Below are positions 10,179 through 53,511 of a DNA stretch of 64,000 nt, piece by piece. Source of the stretch: Termitidicoccus mucosus (lineage in GTDB: Bacteria > Verrucomicrobiota > Verrucomicrobiia > Opitutales > Opitutaceae); NCBI RefSeq assembly GCF_038725785.1, contig NZ_CP109796.1:4278001-4342000 (forward strand), read 5' to 3'. A program made the position numbers and the translations under genes. The notes beneath the pieces are model-generated. The model was not told the DNA's origin, searched no databases, and saw only the letters and a list, made by a program, of their open reading frames with translations. The stretch's first letter is position 1, and each line of letters begins with the position of its first letter.

Positions 10179-10195
10179 AGCATTTCCCTGCTTGT

Positions 10196-10274
10196 GGAGG
10201 GCCGAGCTCCCGCGAGGCCGTCGCGGTTAAATCCCGCATCCTCCGGCGACGGCCTCGCGGGAGCTCGGCCCTCC
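10196..10274. repeat. GC-rich palindrome with perfect 29-bp arms (family of four)
   Basis: Arms 10196-10224 and 10246-10274 are exact complements, beginning GGAGGGCCGAGCTCCCGCGA. Relatives are at 36114-36196, 53369-53457 and 55488-55572. It lies between the converging yjbQ and nifJ genes. Confidence 0.8.
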
Positions 10275-10281
10275 TGAACCA

Positions 10282-13300: not shown

Positions 13301-13978
13301 GGGGTTCTGCGCGGTGCCGCGAATGGCGGGGTGGTCGGGGGTGAGGCCGCGGGCGCGGTGGGCGGCGAGGGCGGCGGGGTCGAGCAGGGAATTGAGCGCG
13401 GCGTCGTCGAGGCGCTTGACGGTGTTGATTTCGTGCGAGGTGCGGAAGCCGTCGAAGAAGTGGAGCACCGGGATGCGCGCGCGGAGGGTCGTGGAGTGCG
13501 CGATGGCGGCCATGTCCTGGGCCTGCTGCGGGGAGTTGGACGCGAGCATGATCCAGCCGGTCTGGCGGCAGGCCATGACGTCGGAGTGGTCGCCGAAGAT
13601 GGAAAGCGCGTGCGTGGCGAGGGTGCGGGCGGTGACGTGGAAGACGCAGGGGGTGAGCTCGCCGGCGATCTTATACATGTTGGGGATCATCAGGAGCAGG
13701 CCTTGCGAGGCGGTGAAAGTGCTGGAAAGCGCACCACCCTGAAGGGCGCCGTGGACGGCGCCGGCGGCGCCGGCCTCGGACTGCATCTCGACGATCTCGG
13801 GGACGTGGCCGAAGAGGTTGTTTTTCTTCGCAACCGCCCATTCATCAATAACCTCAGCCATCGGAGTCGAGGGCGTGATGGGATAGATGGCGAAGACCTC
13901 GGTCATGCGATAGGCGACGGAGGCGACAGCTTCGTTGGCGTCGATCGTGGCGCCGTGGGCGGTGGTGGAATTTTTCAT
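10352..13978 (-). CDS. nifJ: Pyruvate:ferredoxin (flavodoxin) oxidoreductase, single-chain
   Basis: A 1208-residue homodimeric-type enzyme that oxidises pyruvate and CoA to acetyl-CoA and CO2, passing electrons to ferredoxin or flavodoxin. Domain order is complete. The N-terminal pyrimidine-binding domain has 'YPITPSTPMAE', followed by the gamma domain, then two [4Fe-4S] motifs ('CIQCNKCVQVCP' and 'CTGCELCVASCP'), then the TPP domain with 'CAGCGETPYIKLLTQLFGD', a further cluster Cys, and 'GGDGWAYDIGYGGLDH'. The tail is Ala/Pro-rich. The gene implies anaerobic or fermentative pyruvate metabolism. It stands alone with an AT-rich upstream region and its own terminator. Confidence 0.96.
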   Translation of the reverse strand: MKNSTTAHGATIDANEAVASVAYRMTEVFAIYPITPSTPMAEVIDEWAVAKKNNLFGHVPEIVEMQSEAGAAGAVHGALQGGALSSTFTASQGLLLMIPNMYKIAGELTPCVFHVTARTLATHALSIFGDHSDVMACRQTGWIMLASNSPQQAQDMAAIAHSTTLRARIPVLHFFDGFRTSHEINTVKRLDDAALNSLLDPAALAAHRARGLTPDHPAIRGTAQNPDVFFQAREACNPYYNAVPAIMQEEMDKFAQLTGRAYSLVSYEGAPDADRVVVIMGSGAETTIETAKWLNTKGQKTGVLSVHLYRPFPVEAFIKALPKTVRQIAVLDRTKEPGAFGDPLFLDVATAVRVAEDADHFGANTRVKIVGGRYGLSSKEYTPAHAAAVFEELSQTKPRHSFTVGINDDVTGLSLSVDESIDIEDTTGALTRAVFFGLGADGTVGANKNTIKIIGTEAGKYAQGYFVYDSKKSGGFTVSHLRFGDHPIRAPYLIRNADFVACHQFHLLDTQPVLSHAATGANLLINAPGDPETLWERLSAETQAEILAKKLRVYAIDAGAVARAAGLGGRINTIMQVCFFKLSKVMPLDQAITSIKGAIKKSYSNKGEAVVAKNIAGVDSALASLKEVKIPAATSSTIHRQPPVPTDAPDFVRNVTGVILAGLGDQLPVSAFTPDGTWPTATARYEKRNLAARIPVWDSALCIQCNKCVQVCPHAAIRAKFYDPALLAGAPATFKSVPFRSTEFKGQHYTLQVAAEDCTGCELCVASCPTKSKADPNRRAINMEPQIPLRDQERDNFNFFLSLPQVDRTKFKGDTPKNVQFFEPLFEFSGACAGCGETPYIKLLTQLFGDRAVIANATGCSSIYGGNLPTTPYTVNAEGRGPAWANSLFEDNAEFGLGMRLSLDNAASRARRLLGQLADKAGADLAGAILGADQSNDLAIAEQRARVAALREKLAGIDDPAARELATVADHLVNKTVWILGGDGWAYDIGYGGLDHVIASGRNVNIMVLDTEVYSNTGGQCSKSTPLGAAAKFAAAGKASGKKDLGMLAMTYGNVYVARVALGARDAQTLNAIREAESYPGPSLIIAYSHCIAHGFNLTQGMDHQKLAVDTGYWPLYRFDPRRVAKGENPLVLDSAAPKTELSKLTRSENRYAQIARRNPELVERYEIAAQAGVNERYQTYKKLAEKWPAPEASPAAPAPAPEPAAKA

Positions 13979-15159: not shown

Positions 15160-16029
15160 TCAAACCAGGCAGGCCTTGAAGGCTTCGTTCAGGGCGGCGC
15201 GGTCGAGGTTCTTGCCGATGAAAACCAGCGTGTTGGTCCGCGGGTCGCCGCCCCATTCGCGGTCGAGCTTGGTGTCGAAGAGCATGTGCACGCCTTGGAA
15301 GACGAGGCGCTTGTTCACGCCTTTCACGCTGAGCACGCCTTTCATGCGGTAAATGTCACCGCCCTTGGTGCGGAGAAGCTCGTCGGTGGCGCGGCTGAGC
15401 TGGAAGCCGCCGACGTCGAGGACGGCGGCGAGGGGGACGCCGGCGTTGGTGGCGCGGTGGATTTTCGCGGCGGCGTTCATGCGGCGCACGCGGGCTTCGA
15501 GGGCGTCGAGCTCGGCGGGGGTGACGAGGTCGGTTTTGTTGAGGATGAGGACGTCGGCGAAGGCGATTTGTTTTTTCACCTCAGGCGAGTCGTCGAGGTG
15601 CTGGACGATGTGCCTGACATCGACAATGGTGACGATGGCATCAATGCGGTAGGCGGCGCGCATCTCGTCGTCGGTGAAGAAGGTTTGCGCGACGGGGCCG
15701 GGATCGGCGAGCCCGGTGGTCTCGATGAGGATGCCGTCGAGCCGGTCCTTGCGTTTCAGGAGGCGGCCGAGGATGCGGATGAGGTCGCCACGCACGGAGC
15801 AGCAGATGCAGCCGTTGTTCATCTCGAACAGTTCCTCCTCTCCCTGGATGACGAGCTGGTTGTCCACGCCGACCTCGCCGAATTCGTTTTCGATGACGGC
15901 GATTTTTTTGCCGTGCTGCCCGGTGAGGATGCGGTTGAGGAGCGTGGTTTTGCCTGCGCCGAGGAACCCGGTGAGGACGGTGACGGGGATGGGGGCGAGG
16001 GCGGCGGAGGAATTGTCGGAGGAGCTCAT
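15160..16029 (-). CDS. G3E (CobW-type) GTPase, putative metallochaperone
   Basis: 289 residues. G3E GTPases deliver metals such as zinc or cobalt to target enzymes. P-loop 'GFLGAGKTTLLNRIL', the family metal motif in 'NNGCICCSVRGDL' (CxCC), Walker B 'ILIETTGLADP' and G4 'LNKTDL' are all visible. The C-terminal CobW_C domain ends with 'VFIGKNLDRAALNEAF'. The upstream frame beyond 16029 is not used, since MSSSDNSSA is the first residue run leading to the conserved beta strand. The first 22 codons are duplicated at 16561-16626 as part of a local tandem duplication. Confidence 0.9.
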   Translation of the reverse strand: MSSSDNSSAALAPIPVTVLTGFLGAGKTTLLNRILTGQHGKKIAVIENEFGEVGVDNQLVIQGEEELFEMNNGCICCSVRGDLIRILGRLLKRKDRLDGILIETTGLADPGPVAQTFFTDDEMRAAYRIDAIVTIVDVRHIVQHLDDSPEVKKQIAFADVLILNKTDLVTPAELDALEARVRRMNAAAKIHRATNAGVPLAAVLDVGGFQLSRATDELLRTKGGDIYRMKGVLSVKGVNKRLVFQGVHMLFDTKLDREWGGDPRTNTLVFIGKNLDRAALNEAFKACLV

Positions 16030-16531
16030 GATGGCAGTAGCATAACAAACGCGTCCAGCGGGCGCGGCGCAAGCAGGGAGGTGGTTCTTAAAATCGTTCC
16101 CGGGGCGGAAACCTTTTGGTTGCGGAGGCGCGCCCCCCTGCCCTTCTGTTGTGGCTTCGTGGCGAAAAAACGCTTCAACGACCATCCTTTCCGCTATCAC
16201 GAGGAAATCGTGCTGGATCCATACGCTCACCAACCGGGGCGCGGGCTCAGCGCGTCGCGTTGCTTAACAGCAGCGCGACGGCGGCGGATGGCGGCAACGG
16301 CGAAAAAGGGGCGCGGACTTGCAGGCAGGTCGCTTCGCCCGGAACCGGTCCGCGACGACGCCACAGAATGCCCGCGCTCCGTTGACAGGGCGGCGGCAGC
16401 GGCAGCCGATGCCGCCACCGTCCAGCAAACCCGGCGGCTGGGTCGTGACGATGGTGCCGTTTGCGCTGCCGGGCGAGCGCGTCCGCGCGCGTGTTTCCGC
16501 AATCACAAGAATTACTCCGAGGCCGACCTCG
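15964..16531. repeat. Tandem duplication, left copy (degraded)
   Basis: It corresponds to 16561-17137. The offset is exactly 597 bp over the first 250 bp, then shifts through many 1-3-nt indels. The copy includes the 5' end of the G3E GTPase gene, the intergenic DNA and the start of an RNA methyltransferase gene. Confidence 0.85.
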
Positions 16532-16560: not shown

Positions 16561-17137
16561 GAACCCGGTGAGGACGGTGACGGGGATGGGGGCGAGGGCG
16601 GCGGAGGAATTGTCGGAGGAGCTCATGATGGCAGTAGCATAACAAACGCGTCCAGCGGGCGCGGCGCAAGCAGGGAGGTGGTTCTTAAAATCGTTCCCGG
16701 GGCGGAAACCTTTTGGTTGCGGAGGCGCGCCCCCCTGCCCTTCTGTTGTGGCTTCGTGGCGAAAAAACGCTTCAACGACCATCCTTTCCGCTATCACGAG
16801 GAAATCGTGCTGGAGATCCATACGCTCACCAACCGGGGCGCGGGGCTCGGCCGCGTCGCGTTGCCCGGCAGCGGCGCGACGGCGGCGGATGGCGGCGGCG
16901 GCGAAAAAAGGGGCGCGGACTTGGCAGGCAGGTCGCTTCGCCCGGAACCGGTCCGCGACGACGCGGGCAGGAATGCCCGCGCTCCGTTGGACGAGGCGGC
17001 GGCGGCAACGGCCGATGCCGCCACCGTCCCGGCAAACCCGGGCGGCTGGGTCGTGATGGTGCCGTTTGCGCTGCCGGGCGAGCGCGTCCGCGCGCGCGTG
17101 TTTCGCAATCACAAGAATTACTCCGAGGCCGACCTCG
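16561..17137. repeat. Tandem duplication, right copy
   Basis: It begins inside a copy of the GTPase gene's codons 1-22 (complement, 16561-16626) and runs to the 'NYSEADL' codons of the methyltransferase gene. It keeps one open frame where the left copy has indels. Confidence 0.85.
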
Positions 17138-18002: not shown

Positions 18003-18071
18003 CAATCGTTCTCGTTCTCGAAACGTTGCGCAAACAAAAGAGAGAACGAAGTAAGAGAACGAGAACGATTG
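18003..18071. repeat. Hairpin repeat with 17-bp CAATCGTTCTCGTTCTC arms (uninterrupted copy)
   Basis: The arms 18003-18019 and 18055-18071 are exact complements around a 35-nt centre containing further GAGAACGA-like units. The same hairpin occurs in opposite orientation at 31093-31324, where it is split by another element. Confidence 0.75.
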
Positions 18072-20822: not shown

Positions 20823-20868
20823 GCGCCAAATCATCCCACGCGAAAGGAGCGCGGGCCATTTCTGCCAT

Positions 20869-30364: not shown

Positions 30365-31018
30365 TCATAAAATTCGCCGGGCGACAAAAGATTGATATAT
30401 TTTAGCACGATTTTGGAAAACGGTCTCCTGTTCGAATGGCCATGAAAGCGTAGGATCGATCTCCCAGTTTGCATGTGCTGTCATGGTTTCGCATGCGTCC
30501 TCGAAATAGGGGGCGTAATCGGTGCGGAAGCACAGGCGCGTGTCGATGCCGGAGCGCGTGGCGAGCGCCGTGAGAATTTCGGGCTGGATGAGCCGGTTTT
30601 TGTGGTGGCGGCGTTTTGGCCACGGATCGGGGAACAGGATGAAAATATCCGCAAAGGCCACATGGGCCGGCAGCGAGGCGAGGAATTCGCCCGCCTCGGC
30701 CTGGAGGAACGCGAGATGCGGTTCGAGTCCGGCGCGGGCGGCCTTGCGGCGGGCGCGCGCGATGCGTTCACCGATGAGGTCGATGCCGATGCAAAAAGGC
30801 GTTTGTGGCCGCCGCTCGGAGGCTGAAAGTCGATGGAATGCGGAAAGCGAGACCGATTGCGCGGCGGCGTAGGCGGTGAGGAAGTGGCCGTGGCCGCAGC
30901 CGAGCTCGAGTGTGATGCGCGGATGGCCGCGCAGGAGCACGGCAAGGGTTTCGCGCAACGCGGCAAGGCGCGCGTCGCGGCGGGCAAGAAAATCGGCGGA
31001 GCGGGCTGGGTTTTCCAC
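30365..31018 (-). CDS. trmB: tRNA (guanine(46)-N(7))-methyltransferase
   Basis: About 217 residues. It methylates G46 in the variable loop of tRNA. SAM motif 'TLELGCGHGHFLTAYA', then 'IGIDLIGERIARARRKA', and the family hallmark 'IFILFPDPWPKRRHHKNRLI' are clear; the C-terminal 'FRTDYAPYFEDACETM' is also typical. Residues about 56-73 ('SVSLSAFHRLSASERRPQTP') interrupt the usual Ala-to-CIGID spacing and come from repeat-like DNA. The start is uncertain: no ATG lies near the conserved N-terminus, so GTG 31018 is used. An upstream ATG at 31135 would lie inside the MITE-like insertion. Confidence 0.87.
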   Translation of the reverse strand: MENPARSADFLARRDARLAALRETLAVLLRGHPRITLELGCGHGHFLTAYAAAQSVSLSAFHRLSASERRPQTPFCIGIDLIGERIARARRKAARAGLEPHLAFLQAEAGEFLASLPAHVAFADIFILFPDPWPKRRHHKNRLIQPEILTALATRSGIDTRLCFRTDYAPYFEDACETMTAHANWEIDPTLSWPFEQETVFQNRAKIYQSFVARRIL

Positions 31019-31092
31019 GGGCGGGAGCGGGAGAGCCGGTTGTCTTGGGGCAAAAGCGGCCCCCGCGCAAGCCGGGCATGTGAGCGCCCACT

Positions 31093-31324
31093 CAATCGTT
31101 CTCGTTCTGTTATACCATTTGCAGTCAGAAATCACACTTCAGGTAGGGCGAGGCGTCCCCGCCGAGCCGCGAGCGGTTCACGCGGCTCGGCGGGACGCCT
31201 CGCCCTACCATTAACGGTTTCCATAGTGTGATTTTCATTCGCAAATGGTATTACTCGTTCTTCGTTCTCTTTTGTTTTCGAAATGTTTCGCGAACGAGAA
31301 CGAGTAAGAGAACGAGAACGATTG
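31093..31324. repeat. Hairpin repeat (CAATCGTTCTCG arms) interrupted by a MITE-like element
   Basis: The left arm 31093-31108 and right arm ending 31324 match the uninterrupted hairpin at 18003-18071 in reverse orientation. About 145 bp of unrelated sequence sits between the left arm and the hairpin centre. Confidence 0.75.
31110..31253. mobile_element. MITE-like element with ATACCATTTGC terminal repeats
   Basis: ATACCATTTGC (31112-31122) and GCAAATGGTAT (31241-31251) are exact complements; a second pair (TCACACT, AGTGTGA) lies inside. The core is the GGTAGGGCGAGGCGTCCCCG palindrome also found at 20869 and 36251. It is inserted in the hairpin repeat. Confidence 0.75.
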
Positions 31325-36216: not shown

Positions 36217-36352
36217 TTATACCATTTCCGAACCATTTTCACACTTATCAGGGTAGGGCGAGGCGTCCCCGCCGAGCCGTTGCTGGCCTGCGGCTCGGCG
36301 GGGACGCCTCGCCCTACCCAAAGGGGGGATTTTAATTGGGAATTGGTATTAA
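36217..36352. mobile_element. MITE-like element with ATACCA/TTGGTAT ends
   Basis: The core arms 36251-36279 and 36291-36319 are perfect complements (29 bp). The outer ends TTATACCATTTCC and AATTGGTATTAAT are similar but imperfect. It is the same family as the insertion at 31110-31253. Confidence 0.7.
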
Positions 36353-39829: not shown

Positions 39830-41521
39830 TTATTTCGCCTGCGGGAAGCGATAGAGTTTGGCGCGCATGATGGCGGGTTGCGGACTGGAGAAGCGCAGGC
39901 CGGTGCCGGTCTGGCGGGCGGCGGCCTGCGTGCCCAGGTCGTAGTCGAGCATGATTTCGTCGCCGTTGAGGCGGCGGCCGGGAATCCACTTTCCGGACGC
40001 GTCGAAGACGCCTTCCTCGACCTGCGCGAGGCCGACGGTGTCGTCGCCGGCGGGATCGGTGGCGAAGGTGACCTGGAGGTTCGCGCCGACGGCGAGGAAT
40101 TCGTCGGGGCCGGTGGCGAGGATGAGGCCGTAGGCACGTTCGGGCACGCCCTTGGCGCGCCAGCCGGTGAAGAGCGCGGCTTTCAAATCATAGCCGCCGA
40201 GCTTGATGCGCTCGGAGGGATTTTGCGGGTCGAGCGAGACGGCGGCGATGTTGTCGCGGGTTTGTTGCGCGAGAATCTGCGGGGCGAGCTGGCTGAGGAT
40301 GGCGTAGGCGCGGACGAGCGGATCGTCGGCGAGGTTCTTTTCATCGAGGCGGCTGTCGATGCCGAAGGGCGAGTAGCCGAGCCCGCCGAAACGCCCGATG
40401 GCGACAAACGCATTGGCGGCGCCGGTTTCCCCGGCAAAGGACTCGGGCACGAAAAACGGCGCGCCGGGGCGGGCGTATTCGGCGCAGATCTGGGTGAAGT
40501 TGGGCAGGTAGACATCCGGCGCGAAAATGTCGATGTGCGGGGCGGCGGCGCGCCAGAGGTCGAGCACGTGGGCCTGCGGGCCGCCGGAGGGATATTCGCC
40601 GGGGAGTTCGTCGGAGGGCTGCACGATCCAGGCGTTGACGAAGGCGGGGAGCGCGTGCTCGCGTTTGCCGGCGGCGGCGACGTGGTCGGTGTAGCGCGCG
40701 TAGTGCCAGGCCATGAAGGCTTCCTCGGCGCGCGGGCCGCGGCCGAACACATCCGCCCAAGTGCCGGCGGTCTTGAAGCCGGTGTCGCGCCAGAGGGCGC
40801 GCAGCGCGGGCGCGAGGGTCTCGCGGTTTTGCCGGAGGTGGTCGAGGAGCGCGGCGGGGACGGGTTGCGCCCAGGCGGCGTCGGCGAGGGCGGAGCGGTC
40901 GCGGGCATCGGCGTGGAGGCCGACCTCGTTTTGCACCTGCATCATGATGACGGTGTGGCGGTCGCCATCGGTTTCGCGGAGGTGGCGCAGGAGGGCGGCG
41001 TAGGCGCGGGCGTCGGCATCGCGGTTGGCCTCGGAAAAGACGGAGAGGATTTCGAGCGTGCCTTGCGCGGTGCGGGCGCGGGGAAAGCGGGCGGTGTCGG
41101 CCTTCACCCAGGCGGGGGCGTAGTGGCTGAGCCCGTTTTTCCAACTGCCGAACCAGAGCAGGACGAGGCGGAGGTCGTGCGCGCGGGCGTCGGCGATGAG
41201 GTGGTCAACCAGGGTGAAATCGAACCGGCCCTCGGCGGGCTCGATGACGTCCCAAGGCACGGCGGCGAGGACGGTGTTGAGATGCGCGGCGGCGAGCCGC
41301 GGCCAGTGCGGGGCCATGTAGGCGCGGCTGGTGGAGCTGGAGTTGTGGAGTTCGCCGGCCAGCGCGAGGAAGGGCTGGCCGTCAACGATGAGCTGGGTGG
41401 CGAGCCCGCGCTTTTCGAGCCGGGGCAGTTCGGCGGCAAAGAGTGAAGAGTGAAAGGTGAAGAGTGAAAGAAGCAGAAAAGCGGAAAGTCGCCGGAGGTT
41501 GGAGCAGGTTGTTGTTTTCAT
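39830..41521 (-). CDS. Secreted GH35-type beta-galactosidase (DUF5597-containing)
   Basis: 563 residues. GH35 fold with 'AGELHNSSSTS' near the N-terminus, acid/base glutamate in 'VIMMQVQNEVGLHAD' and nucleophile glutamate in 'PFFVPESFAGE'. The C-terminal domain resembles DUF5597 found in bacterial beta-galactosidases. It likely trims galactose from pectin side chains. The signal peptide (residues 1-29) is partly encoded by a four-unit GAGTGAA heptamer array (41441-41468, complement), giving 'LSLFTFHSSLF' as the hydrophobic core. Start ATG 41521 begins that peptide; the upstream frame is discarded. Confidence 0.82.
   Translation of the reverse strand: MKTTTCSNLRRLSAFLLLSLFTFHSSLFAAELPRLEKRGLATQLIVDGQPFLALAGELHNSSSTSRAYMAPHWPRLAAAHLNTVLAAVPWDVIEPAEGRFDFTLVDHLIADARAHDLRLVLLWFGSWKNGLSHYAPAWVKADTARFPRARTAQGTLEILSVFSEANRDADARAYAALLRHLRETDGDRHTVIMMQVQNEVGLHADARDRSALADAAWAQPVPAALLDHLRQNRETLAPALRALWRDTGFKTAGTWADVFGRGPRAEEAFMAWHYARYTDHVAAAGKREHALPAFVNAWIVQPSDELPGEYPSGGPQAHVLDLWRAAAPHIDIFAPDVYLPNFTQICAEYARPGAPFFVPESFAGETGAANAFVAIGRFGGLGYSPFGIDSRLDEKNLADDPLVRAYAILSQLAPQILAQQTRDNIAAVSLDPQNPSERIKLGGYDLKAALFTGWRAKGVPERAYGLILATGPDEFLAVGANLQVTFATDPAGDDTVGLAQVEEGVFDASGKWIPGRRLNGDEIMLDYDLGTQAAARQTGTGLRFSSPQPAIMRAKLYRFPQAK
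41441..41468. repeat. Heptamer array GAGTGAA x4 in the GH35 signal-peptide codons
   Basis: Units GAGTGAA, GAGTGAA, AGGTGAA, GAGTGAA. The inverted partner array is at 41555-41582, so the two arms flank the GH35 start codon. Confidence 0.8.
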
Positions 41522-41554
41522 AGGAAAATCGTGTGTTGGTTTGATGGTTTGTTT

Positions 41555-41582
41555 TTCACTCTTCACCTTTCTCTCTTCACTT
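41555..41582. repeat. Heptamer array TTCACTC x4 upstream of the GH35 gene
   Basis: Units TTCACTC, TTCACCT, TTCTCTC, TTCACTT, filling the gap between the CBM9-like gene's stop and the GH35 gene's start. Inverted relative to 41441-41468. Confidence 0.75.
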
Positions 41583-41583
41583 T

Positions 41584-42732
41584 TCAGCGTAGCTGCACGT
41601 CCCAGACTTTGGAGAGGCGGGACTTTCCGGCGGGGCCTTCGACTTCGAGAATGACGGTGCGGCTGCGGGTGTCCGCGTAGGCGTGGAGCGGGTGTTGCTC
41701 GGCGGAGGTTTGGCCGTCGCCGAAGTCCCAATGCCACGCGGTGACCTCGCCGCGCGACTCGTCCTTGAAGGCGACGAGGCGGCGGTCCATGTCCACGACG
41801 GCGAACGACCAGCGGGCCTCGATTTTCTTTTTTTCCAGCGCGGGCTCCAGCGGCATGAGGCGGAAGGCGGGGAGCGCGCTGGCGTCGCCGAACATGGTGT
41901 AGCGGCGGCCGAGCGACCAGAAGCCGCGTTTCGCTGGGTCGGGGTCGCCGTCGTAGTCGATGACGATCCAGCCGAGACCGATGAGCTTGTTTTCACGGAG
42001 GACGGACTCGACGGCGCGTTGCGGCCCTTCGGGGCCGGCGTAGTCGAACGGGGTTATCCAGAATTCGAGCGTGAATTTTCCCGGCTCCCCGTGCTTGAAA
42101 TCGAAGCGCGAGGCGGCGTTGGCGAAGGGAAATTCCTTCGTCCAAGTCGGCGAGCCCCAGGCCAGCGCCCAGTCCTTGTCCATGGCGGGCGTGAAGATAT
42201 GGTAGTTCTGCGCATGCACGCCGTGCGCGGCCCAGTGGCGCTCGGCGTCGGGGATGCGCGGATCGGTGTCGAGGACGGCGCGCTGCCGTCCGACGACATC
42301 GGCGGTCCAGAAATCGCGGTGCTCGGAGTCGATGAACGGGCCGCCGGAGGCGTCGCCATCGACGATGACCTCGAAGGTGTCGTTGCGCAGCCCGGGGTCG
42401 GAGAAGTCCCAGAAATTGTCACGGGCCTCGTAGAGGAAATAGAGGCGGTTGAGCCCCTTCACCCAGCCGACGCGCACGCGCACGTCGAGGTCGGCGGGAT
42501 CGGGTTTCTTTTTGGTTTCGCCGAGGTCGACAAGCTGGCCGGCGCCGACGACGTAGGATTCGGGAACCATGGCCCAGTCGGAGGCGTCGCCGTCGATGCG
42601 CGGCATCTGGTCGGCGGGAAACTGGAAGACGGGAAAGGTGACTTCGGGACGGTCGAGGGAAAAGGCCGAAGGGCGGAAAGGCTGAAGGGCGGAAAGCAGC
42701 GCAAGGGCGGCGATGAAACGTGACGGGCGCAT
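41584..42732 (-). CDS. Secreted CBM9-like / PKD-domain protein
   Basis: 382 residues with a signal peptide whose later part ('ALQPFRPSAFSL') is coded by 8-nt repeats. Residues about 40-290 resemble carbohydrate-binding family 9 / DOMON-like domains ('PRIDGDASDWAMV', 'LYFLYEARDNFWDFSDPGLRNDTFEVIVDGD'). A short PKD-like domain follows ('AWHWDFGDGQTSAEQHPLHAYAD'). No catalytic motif was seen. It probably binds polysaccharide near the cell or assists the neighbouring GH35, GH28 and GH105 enzymes. Confidence 0.7.
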   Translation of the reverse strand: MRPSRFIAALALLSALQPFRPSAFSLDRPEVTFPVFQFPADQMPRIDGDASDWAMVPESYVVGAGQLVDLGETKKKPDPADLDVRVRVGWVKGLNRLYFLYEARDNFWDFSDPGLRNDTFEVIVDGDASGGPFIDSEHRDFWTADVVGRQRAVLDTDPRIPDAERHWAAHGVHAQNYHIFTPAMDKDWALAWGSPTWTKEFPFANAASRFDFKHGEPGKFTLEFWITPFDYAGPEGPQRAVESVLRENKLIGLGWIVIDYDGDPDPAKRGFWSLGRRYTMFGDASALPAFRLMPLEPALEKKKIEARWSFAVVDMDRRLVAFKDESRGEVTAWHWDFGDGQTSAEQHPLHAYADTRSRTVILEVEGPAGKSRLSKVWDVQLR

Positions 42733-53341: not shown

Positions 53342-53368
53342 GACCCTTTCCCCATGAAAATAACCCTT

Positions 53369-53457
53369 CTGCTGGAGGGCCGAGCTCCTGCGAGGCCGTC
53401 GCGGAAAAAAGTCGCGTATGGCTGCGACGGCCTCGCAGGAGCTCGGCCCTCCAGCAG
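53369..53457. repeat. GC palindrome with perfect 34-bp arms
   Basis: Arms 53369-53402 and 53424-53457 (CTGCTGGAGGGCCGAGCTCC...). It is the longest perfect arm pair of the four-member family. Confidence 0.8.
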
Positions 53458-53511
53458 AGTGAATTTCGTTCGGAATTGGTATAAGGCGCGGCGGCGGGAT
53501 TTGTCCTCTGG

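Follow-up and report, generated by a model that had tools for sequence, protein, structure and literature searches.

The arrangement at positions 31093-31324 of the window, i.e. of the whole stretch of 64,000 nucleotides analysed here, raises the question of whether a hairpin repeat has been invaded by a separate mobile element, or whether the hairpin and the unit within it belong to one and the same repeat. An earlier note had taken the inner unit for a discrete element of the mobile type and the hairpin for a repeat in its own right, and both parts of this view are supported by the analyses described below. The outer part of the inner unit, with its terminal repeats, is called the shell here, and the palindrome at its centre the core. 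The following features define the locus, the outer repeat, the inserted element and core A being delimited on the sequence:

31093-31324, no strand: outer hairpin repeat with the insertion, ends CAATCGTTCTCGTTCTC...GAGAACGAGAACGATTG
31113-31250, no strand: inserted element (shell and core), 138 bp, ends TACCATTTGC / GCAAATGGTA
31110-31112, no strand: left copy of the 3-bp target duplication, TTA
31251-31253, no strand: right copy of the target duplication, TTA
31142-31209, no strand: core A, a GTAG-type REP-like double palindrome (GC), GGTAGGGCGAGGCGTCC...GGGACGCCTCGCCCTACC, its GTAG tag compared with PMC3733652
31301-31324, no strand: opposite hairpin arm with the unoccupied site, a single undivided TAA at 31305-31307
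18003-18071, no strand: paralogous hairpin without insertion, its sole TNA triplet (TAA, 18052-18054) intact

The outer hairpin reads CAATCGTTCTC...GAGAACGATTG, with CAATCG at 31093 and GATTG at 31324, and the unit in one of its arms is of the form TACC...GGTA, with terminal repeats that are perfect over 11 bp (ATACCATTTGC and GCAAATGGTAT). This unit has the terminal repeats of its own and the GC palindrome core that had been ascribed to it, and measures 138 bp. Its insertion point, which had been placed near a TTA, is at TTA in the sequence and is more exactly a duplicated TNA triplet. The hairpin copy at 18003-18071 is uninterrupted, as the earlier note had stated; it is a paralogous and not an allelic empty site, and the opposite arm of the 31093 hairpin is the better control. 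We conclude that 31093-31324 is a real and well-supported nested insertion, in which an older hairpin repeat has apparently taken up, in one of its arms, a short element without genes that copied three target bases.

The ends of the unit are dispersed over the genome. In the 7.9-Mb genome of the window (G000), the motif ATACCAWTT has 95 + 89 = 184 matches, compared to 6 + 5 = 11 for the reversed control, so that short terminal inverted repeats in multiple dispersed copies, as in MITEs, are present. Shells were sampled in approximately 0.41 Mb of G000 (114 stretches), at further G000 loci and at loci of G001 and G002, two genomes that belong to the same genus. Ends were paired at distances of 60-270 bp with at most one mismatch in all, which gave 92 pairs, reduced to 90 when identical and to 82 when nested pairs were dropped. 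The tests took in the 64 G000 and 16 G002 pairs with enough flanking sequence, which cover part of the shell family; a single G001 pair and another pair with a short flank were excluded. Shell lengths are partly set by construction, as the search for end pairs was confined to distances of 40-400 or 60-270 bp. Pairs without a recognised core (five in G000 and three in G002) were counted throughout, and some of them, such as the 61-bp pair at 2777354, could have arisen by chance. The termini and the target duplication, which the earlier note had left to be defined by alignment of the copies, are, for these 64 and 16 shells, TACCAWTT ends and, in a share of the copies well above that of the shuffles, a 3-bp TNA duplication. 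The window itself contains three further copies:

36220-36348, no strand: second shell, core A, flanks TTA/TTA
53342-53481, no strand: third shell, degenerate left end GACCCTTT, core B, flanks TAA/TAA
55462-55604, no strand: fourth shell, degenerate, core B (TGCCAATT...AATTGGCA), flanks TTA/TGA

The sequence TNATACCAWTTCCGAAYGA was present in two of 76 genomes, G000 (22 matches) and G002 (13 matches), both of one genus; it was absent from G001 of the same genus, though a diverged shell end is found on contig C359 of that genome. A scan of 84,980 species, which may omit the window's own genome, detected TNATACCAWTTCCGAACGARATT in 11 stretches, all of them in the MAG Opitutaceae bacterium Ct408_bin80, which is taken as G002. 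As far as these data show, the shell is a new, genus-specific MITE family whose frame contains varied palindromes, and a new kind of mobile element is not indicated.

The triplets that adjoin the shells on the left and on the right are in most cases TNA. Since the outer T and A of such triplets also fit an extended inverted repeat, the middle base alone discriminates between duplication and palindrome. This base is identical on both sides in 37 of the 64 G000 shells, compared to a mean of 19.2 and a maximum of 33 in 20,000 shuffles of the right flanks. It is complementary in only 12 of the 64, and a longer inverted repeat was therefore rejected. Exact TNA duplications flank 27 of the 64 G000 shells (null mean 10.7, maximum 24 in 20,000 shuffles) and 11 of the 16 G002 shells (null mean 6.2, with 144 of 20,000 shuffles reaching 11), i.e. 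more than the shuffles in both genomes, as in the target site duplications of MITEs; the other 37 G000 shells have no exact TNA duplication. Sorted by length from 1 to 7 nucleotides, the exact duplications in G000 number 9, 3, 27, 0, 0, 1 and 0.

For the shell, the TNA duplication suggests an enzyme of the DDE type, whereas REPs are linked to tyrosine transposases. In our judgement, the inner unit is quite probably a non-autonomous MITE of a genus-specific family, moved in trans by a TNA-duplicating DDE transposase that may be of the IS1031 type. Movement would thus be by transposition, with an enzyme that has been lost or was not found. An enzyme of the IS5/IS1031 type would be the most likely one, since the IS1031 group is reported to be marked by TNA duplications of 3 bp. 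According to PMC12016507, this group of IS5 elements prefers TNA and makes an exclusive 3-bp direct repeat, and the shells share the TNA insertion and the 3-bp duplication; however, they end in TACC, without resemblance to the GAACCTG ends of the group member given in PMC12016507.

A transposase with matching ends, for which the earlier note had proposed to look, was not encountered among the PF01609, PF13340 and PF01797 matches examined. Neither the surroundings of the 18 PF01609 matches in G000 nor those of 20 PF13340 loci, out of 31 matches in G000, G001 and G002, contained a plausible pair of shell ends. The two DDE families searched therefore provided, among the matches examined, no autonomous relative with shell ends and no IS5/IS1031-group transposase with matching ends, and none of the seven PF01797 (Y1) matches in G000 fits the shell ends. 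The commonest IS, which has GGGCGTGTTAACA-type ends and TA flanks, accounts for eight of the 18 PF01609 matches and for nine of the 13 PF13340 matches of G000.

The contents of the shells were sorted into core classes by strict patterns, the letters A to F being our own labels. Core A is present in 30 of the 64 G000 shells and core B in 17, followed by C (5), E (2), C together with F (2), A together with C (1), D (1) and a AACCGCAAAG hairpin (1), five shells having none recognised. The 16 G002 shells enclose a CTTTCTCTTTCC low-complexity hairpin (5), core A (5), C together with F (2), a CACGGATTG hairpin (1) or none (3). Between four of the classes (A, B, C and the CTTTC hairpin; 132 arms), the identity of the arms at positions 9-24 is 0.46-0.63, compared to 0.28 for shuffled letters, and at positions 30-44 the identity between content classes is 0.27-0.35. 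On sequence grounds, the shell is one frame, with arms of about 28 bp, around different palindromes, which comprise several REP-like types and, in G002, low-complexity hairpins as well.

Cores A, B and C have starts of the GTAG or GGAG type and form inverted pairs as in REP dimers. Core A at 31142-31209, taken without the shell, is a GTAG-tag palindrome in inverted pairs as in the REP/REPIN definition of PMC3733652. At 10193-10278, the window also contains a core B palindrome without recognisable shell arms, which suggests that the cores may occur alone and that core and shell are separable. The cores would be REP-type palindromes with RAYT-type mobility of their own, and shell and core would represent separate layers.

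The presence of such cores could also be read in another way, in that a RAYT (IS200/IS605-type, single-stranded) might move the entire inner unit as a large REPIN, the terminal repeats being no more than its outer stem. The GTAG/GGAG-type starts of the cores, as in the REPs of PMC3733652, and the seven Y1 transposase matches in G000 fit this reading, which we nevertheless consider unlikely. It is also favoured by locus L176 (G000 C1:274354-277557), where a shell right end adjoins a gene that matches PF01797 at 22.9 bits, just under the cut-off of 23, and that would be of the RAYT type according to our own reading. GTAG-type palindromes flank this gene; the adjoining shell right end is followed by TGA, and the other side ends in ACTGATGTTACGCGG. 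However, no core A-E pattern, with up to two mismatches, was present in the 1.5-kb flanks fetched for the seven Y1 loci of G000, unrelated cores, including the low-complexity hairpins of G002, are found in the same shell, and core B at 10193 does without the shell arms. Moreover, IS200/IS605 insertion is not known to make a target duplication, and the direct TNA duplications of the shells are unexpected of it.

A quite improbable explanation is that the hairpin and the inner unit form a single composite repeat, which spreads or undergoes conversion as one block, the other copies being the products of later decay or of interior exchange. The best 30 matches of the hairpin search correspond to 28 distinct loci, some of which are only half hairpins. 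Four of these 28 are shelled, i.e. the window copy and those at 2797450, 771315 and 3808034, the last of which has diverged shell ends, was recognised by eye and by its core A, and has TTG as its right triplet. The element search adds two shelled hairpins (4532185 and 2634532) and a remnant at 4447633. In all six shelled hairpins, the shell is located at the equivalent TTA/TAA, as a composite repeat would have it, with contents that differ. In contrast, the other 24 of the 28 best-scoring hairpin loci have neither paired shell ends nor core A, B or D. The hairpin and the inner element are thus not always joined, a finding that also holds from the side of the shells. Only six of the 64 G000 shells exceed the 99th percentile of mismatched flank pairs in the complementarity of their flanks (0.6 expected), the other 58 being not above chance; this measure is an undercount, as the in-hairpin shell at 2634532 was missed when the finder chose a false right end. 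The hairpin as an obligatory target was rejected on the same count.

The position of the shells within the hairpins also argues against a block. Relative to the asymmetric hairpin middle, the shell occupies the GAAACG-side arm at 4532185, 771315 and 3808034, and the AAAGAG-side arm in the window copy, at 2797450 and at 2634532. This use of either arm requires two independent insertions or more, and the shells concerned contain core A or D. An exact TTA..TTA or TAA..TAA surrounds the shell in five of the six (all but 3808034), and the unshelled copies have one such triplet. The opposite arm keeps one undivided TTA/TAA in three of these five (the window copy, 2797450 and 2634532); at 4532185 and 771315 the triplet is missing from the opposite arm, and the comparison relies on the unshelled copies. 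The hairpin would be a repeated but not obligatory target of the shell, probably as a tolerated intergenic sequence that offers TTA/TAA.

The orthologous sites of the sister species bear on the same question. At the site orthologous to 31093, contig C359 of G001 carries the left half of the hairpin, in which a shell left end stands at that same TTA and the interior is a different one, and contig C421 of G002 shows a hairpin remnant and a shell right end with TTA after it. This shared position with differing interiors would be compatible with a composite repeat, whereas contig C617 of G001 carries an intact hairpin beside the right flank of the orthologous site. The slot is common to the sister species and its contents differ, which may reflect either an old shell with exchanged contents or repeated insertion. 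After the shell left end on contig C359 (L237), the open frames suggest phage-like genes, including a DNA-methyltransferase-like one.

At the 18003 site, hairpins of the same word type are present in G000, G001 and G002 with different additions, and the contents of the orthologous sites are unrelated at 20868 (G001 and G002) and at 36219 (G001). A clean allelic empty site between species was found neither at the window sites nor around loci L275 and L276. Both flanks could be matched for two of 48 end pairs from G001/G002 and for eight of 119 from G000, two sets that overlap; the intergenic content of these pairs differs, and several of them are overlapping readings of one site or coding sequence.

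Insertions are also seen in other hosts. Contig C259 of G002 has a shell in another hairpin, with TAA on both sides, and on contig C419 of the same genome (L276) an IS1-type transposase gene contains a shell at 13653-13843 that has TTA on either side. The portion of this gene beyond the shell gives a match to NF033558 that begins at position 110 (68.4 bits), and both sides read together match its positions 68-196 (92.5 bits); the upstream part alone gives no IS1 match, and its frame differs from that of the downstream part. Between 13600 and 14420 of L276, a shell end with core D and another shell, of 78 bp, come after the IS1-type gene. In G002, contig C246 ends in a long fold-back palindrome (L242, 4200-4672), which takes in gene-flank sequence and may be an assembly artefact.

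A functional hairpin (transcription terminator or small RNA), whose copies would be alike through structural selection and not mobility, is suggested by the strong palindrome and by the same-word-type hairpins at the 18003 site of the three genomes, but, although it may still be a secondary role, it is highly improbable as an explanation, given the conservation of the ends at the sequence level with TNA duplications, the shell inserted in a transposase gene, and five Rfam matches that are miRNA hairpins far under their gathering scores.

The MITE reading can tentatively be taken one step further. It is conceivable, although we would not count on it, that the shell serves as a reusable TNA-duplicating frame whose centre accepts and exchanges unrelated palindromes (several REP types and low-complexity hairpins), and that palindromes are stacked at intergenic sites of this kind in layers, each with a turnover of its own between sister species. 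The palindromic shell would perhaps extrude a hairpin, the tip of which would be the target for other palindrome-forming elements.

Among known systems, the shell resembles the bacterial MITEs listed in PMC3733652 (RUP, NEMIS, ERIC, Nezha and others), which are non-coding, multicopy elements of 70-300 bp with inverted ends of 15-30 bp that are mobilised in trans. It differs from those listed by its TNA duplication and by a centre with different, unrelated palindromes, and no parent IS was identified for it. The same source describes Opitutus terrae, another member of the Verrucomicrobia, as highly enriched in GTAG repeats, and its section 7 mentions REP dimers (GTAG-15) inside long palindromes in Anabaena variabilis. 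As in that case, REP dimers are found here at the centre of a larger palindrome. The A. variabilis case, as presented there, concerns one REP family, no palindromes free of REPs are described for it, and the word 'duplication' is absent from the main text of PMC3733652, whereas the shell has several REP-like types, low-complexity hairpins, the TNA duplication and a further outer layer. The shell with its different palindromic cores thus extends the brief note of that section on REP dimers in larger palindromes. The IS elements of PMC1525189, which target REP palindromes, likewise use palindromic repeats as insertion sites; unlike them, the incoming shell is gene-less, and only a minority of its copies are in hairpins. 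The analysis separates three palindromic layers (low-complexity hairpin, TNA-duplicating shell and REP-type core) that could be taken for a single intergenic repeat, and the shell family provides a countable system for how palindromes insert into palindromes, which is of interest for the evolution of REPs and MITEs.

The insertion also touches an adjacent gene:

30365-31135, minus strand: putative trmB-like open frame (name from the earlier note), whose 5' end enters the element

The element had been said to supply an upstream ATG to trmB, which is wrong, as none of the first 110 codons is an in-frame ATG. The in-frame starts in this stretch are GTG at 31135, the sole one inside the element, GTG at 31018, TTG at 30958 and GTG at 30940. 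In G001 and G002, an ATG (ATGACAACC) stands at the position of an AAG in G000, and immediately downstream the sequences differ in length. The usual start of the trmB-like gene seems to be lost in G000, which could be a real change of start or a sequencing error.

Nesting of hairpins is also seen elsewhere in G000. Around 1360-1540 of locus L046 (G000 C1:1553849-1556887), a hairpin of CTTTCCTC words is located at the centre of a CAATCGTTCTC hairpin, i.e. a hairpin within a hairpin. The window also contains an exact direct repeat of 254 bp (15964-16217 and 16561-16814), whose copies are 597 bp apart and belong to a longer duplicated stretch. At 41439-41584, 2286-2317 and 18003-18071, it has several hairpin or inverted-repeat families that are unrelated to one another and whose arms consist of short words in repetition (CGTTCTC, AGAGTGA, AGAGGAAAGAT), and other short-word hairpins are present at orthologous intergenic places in the sister species.
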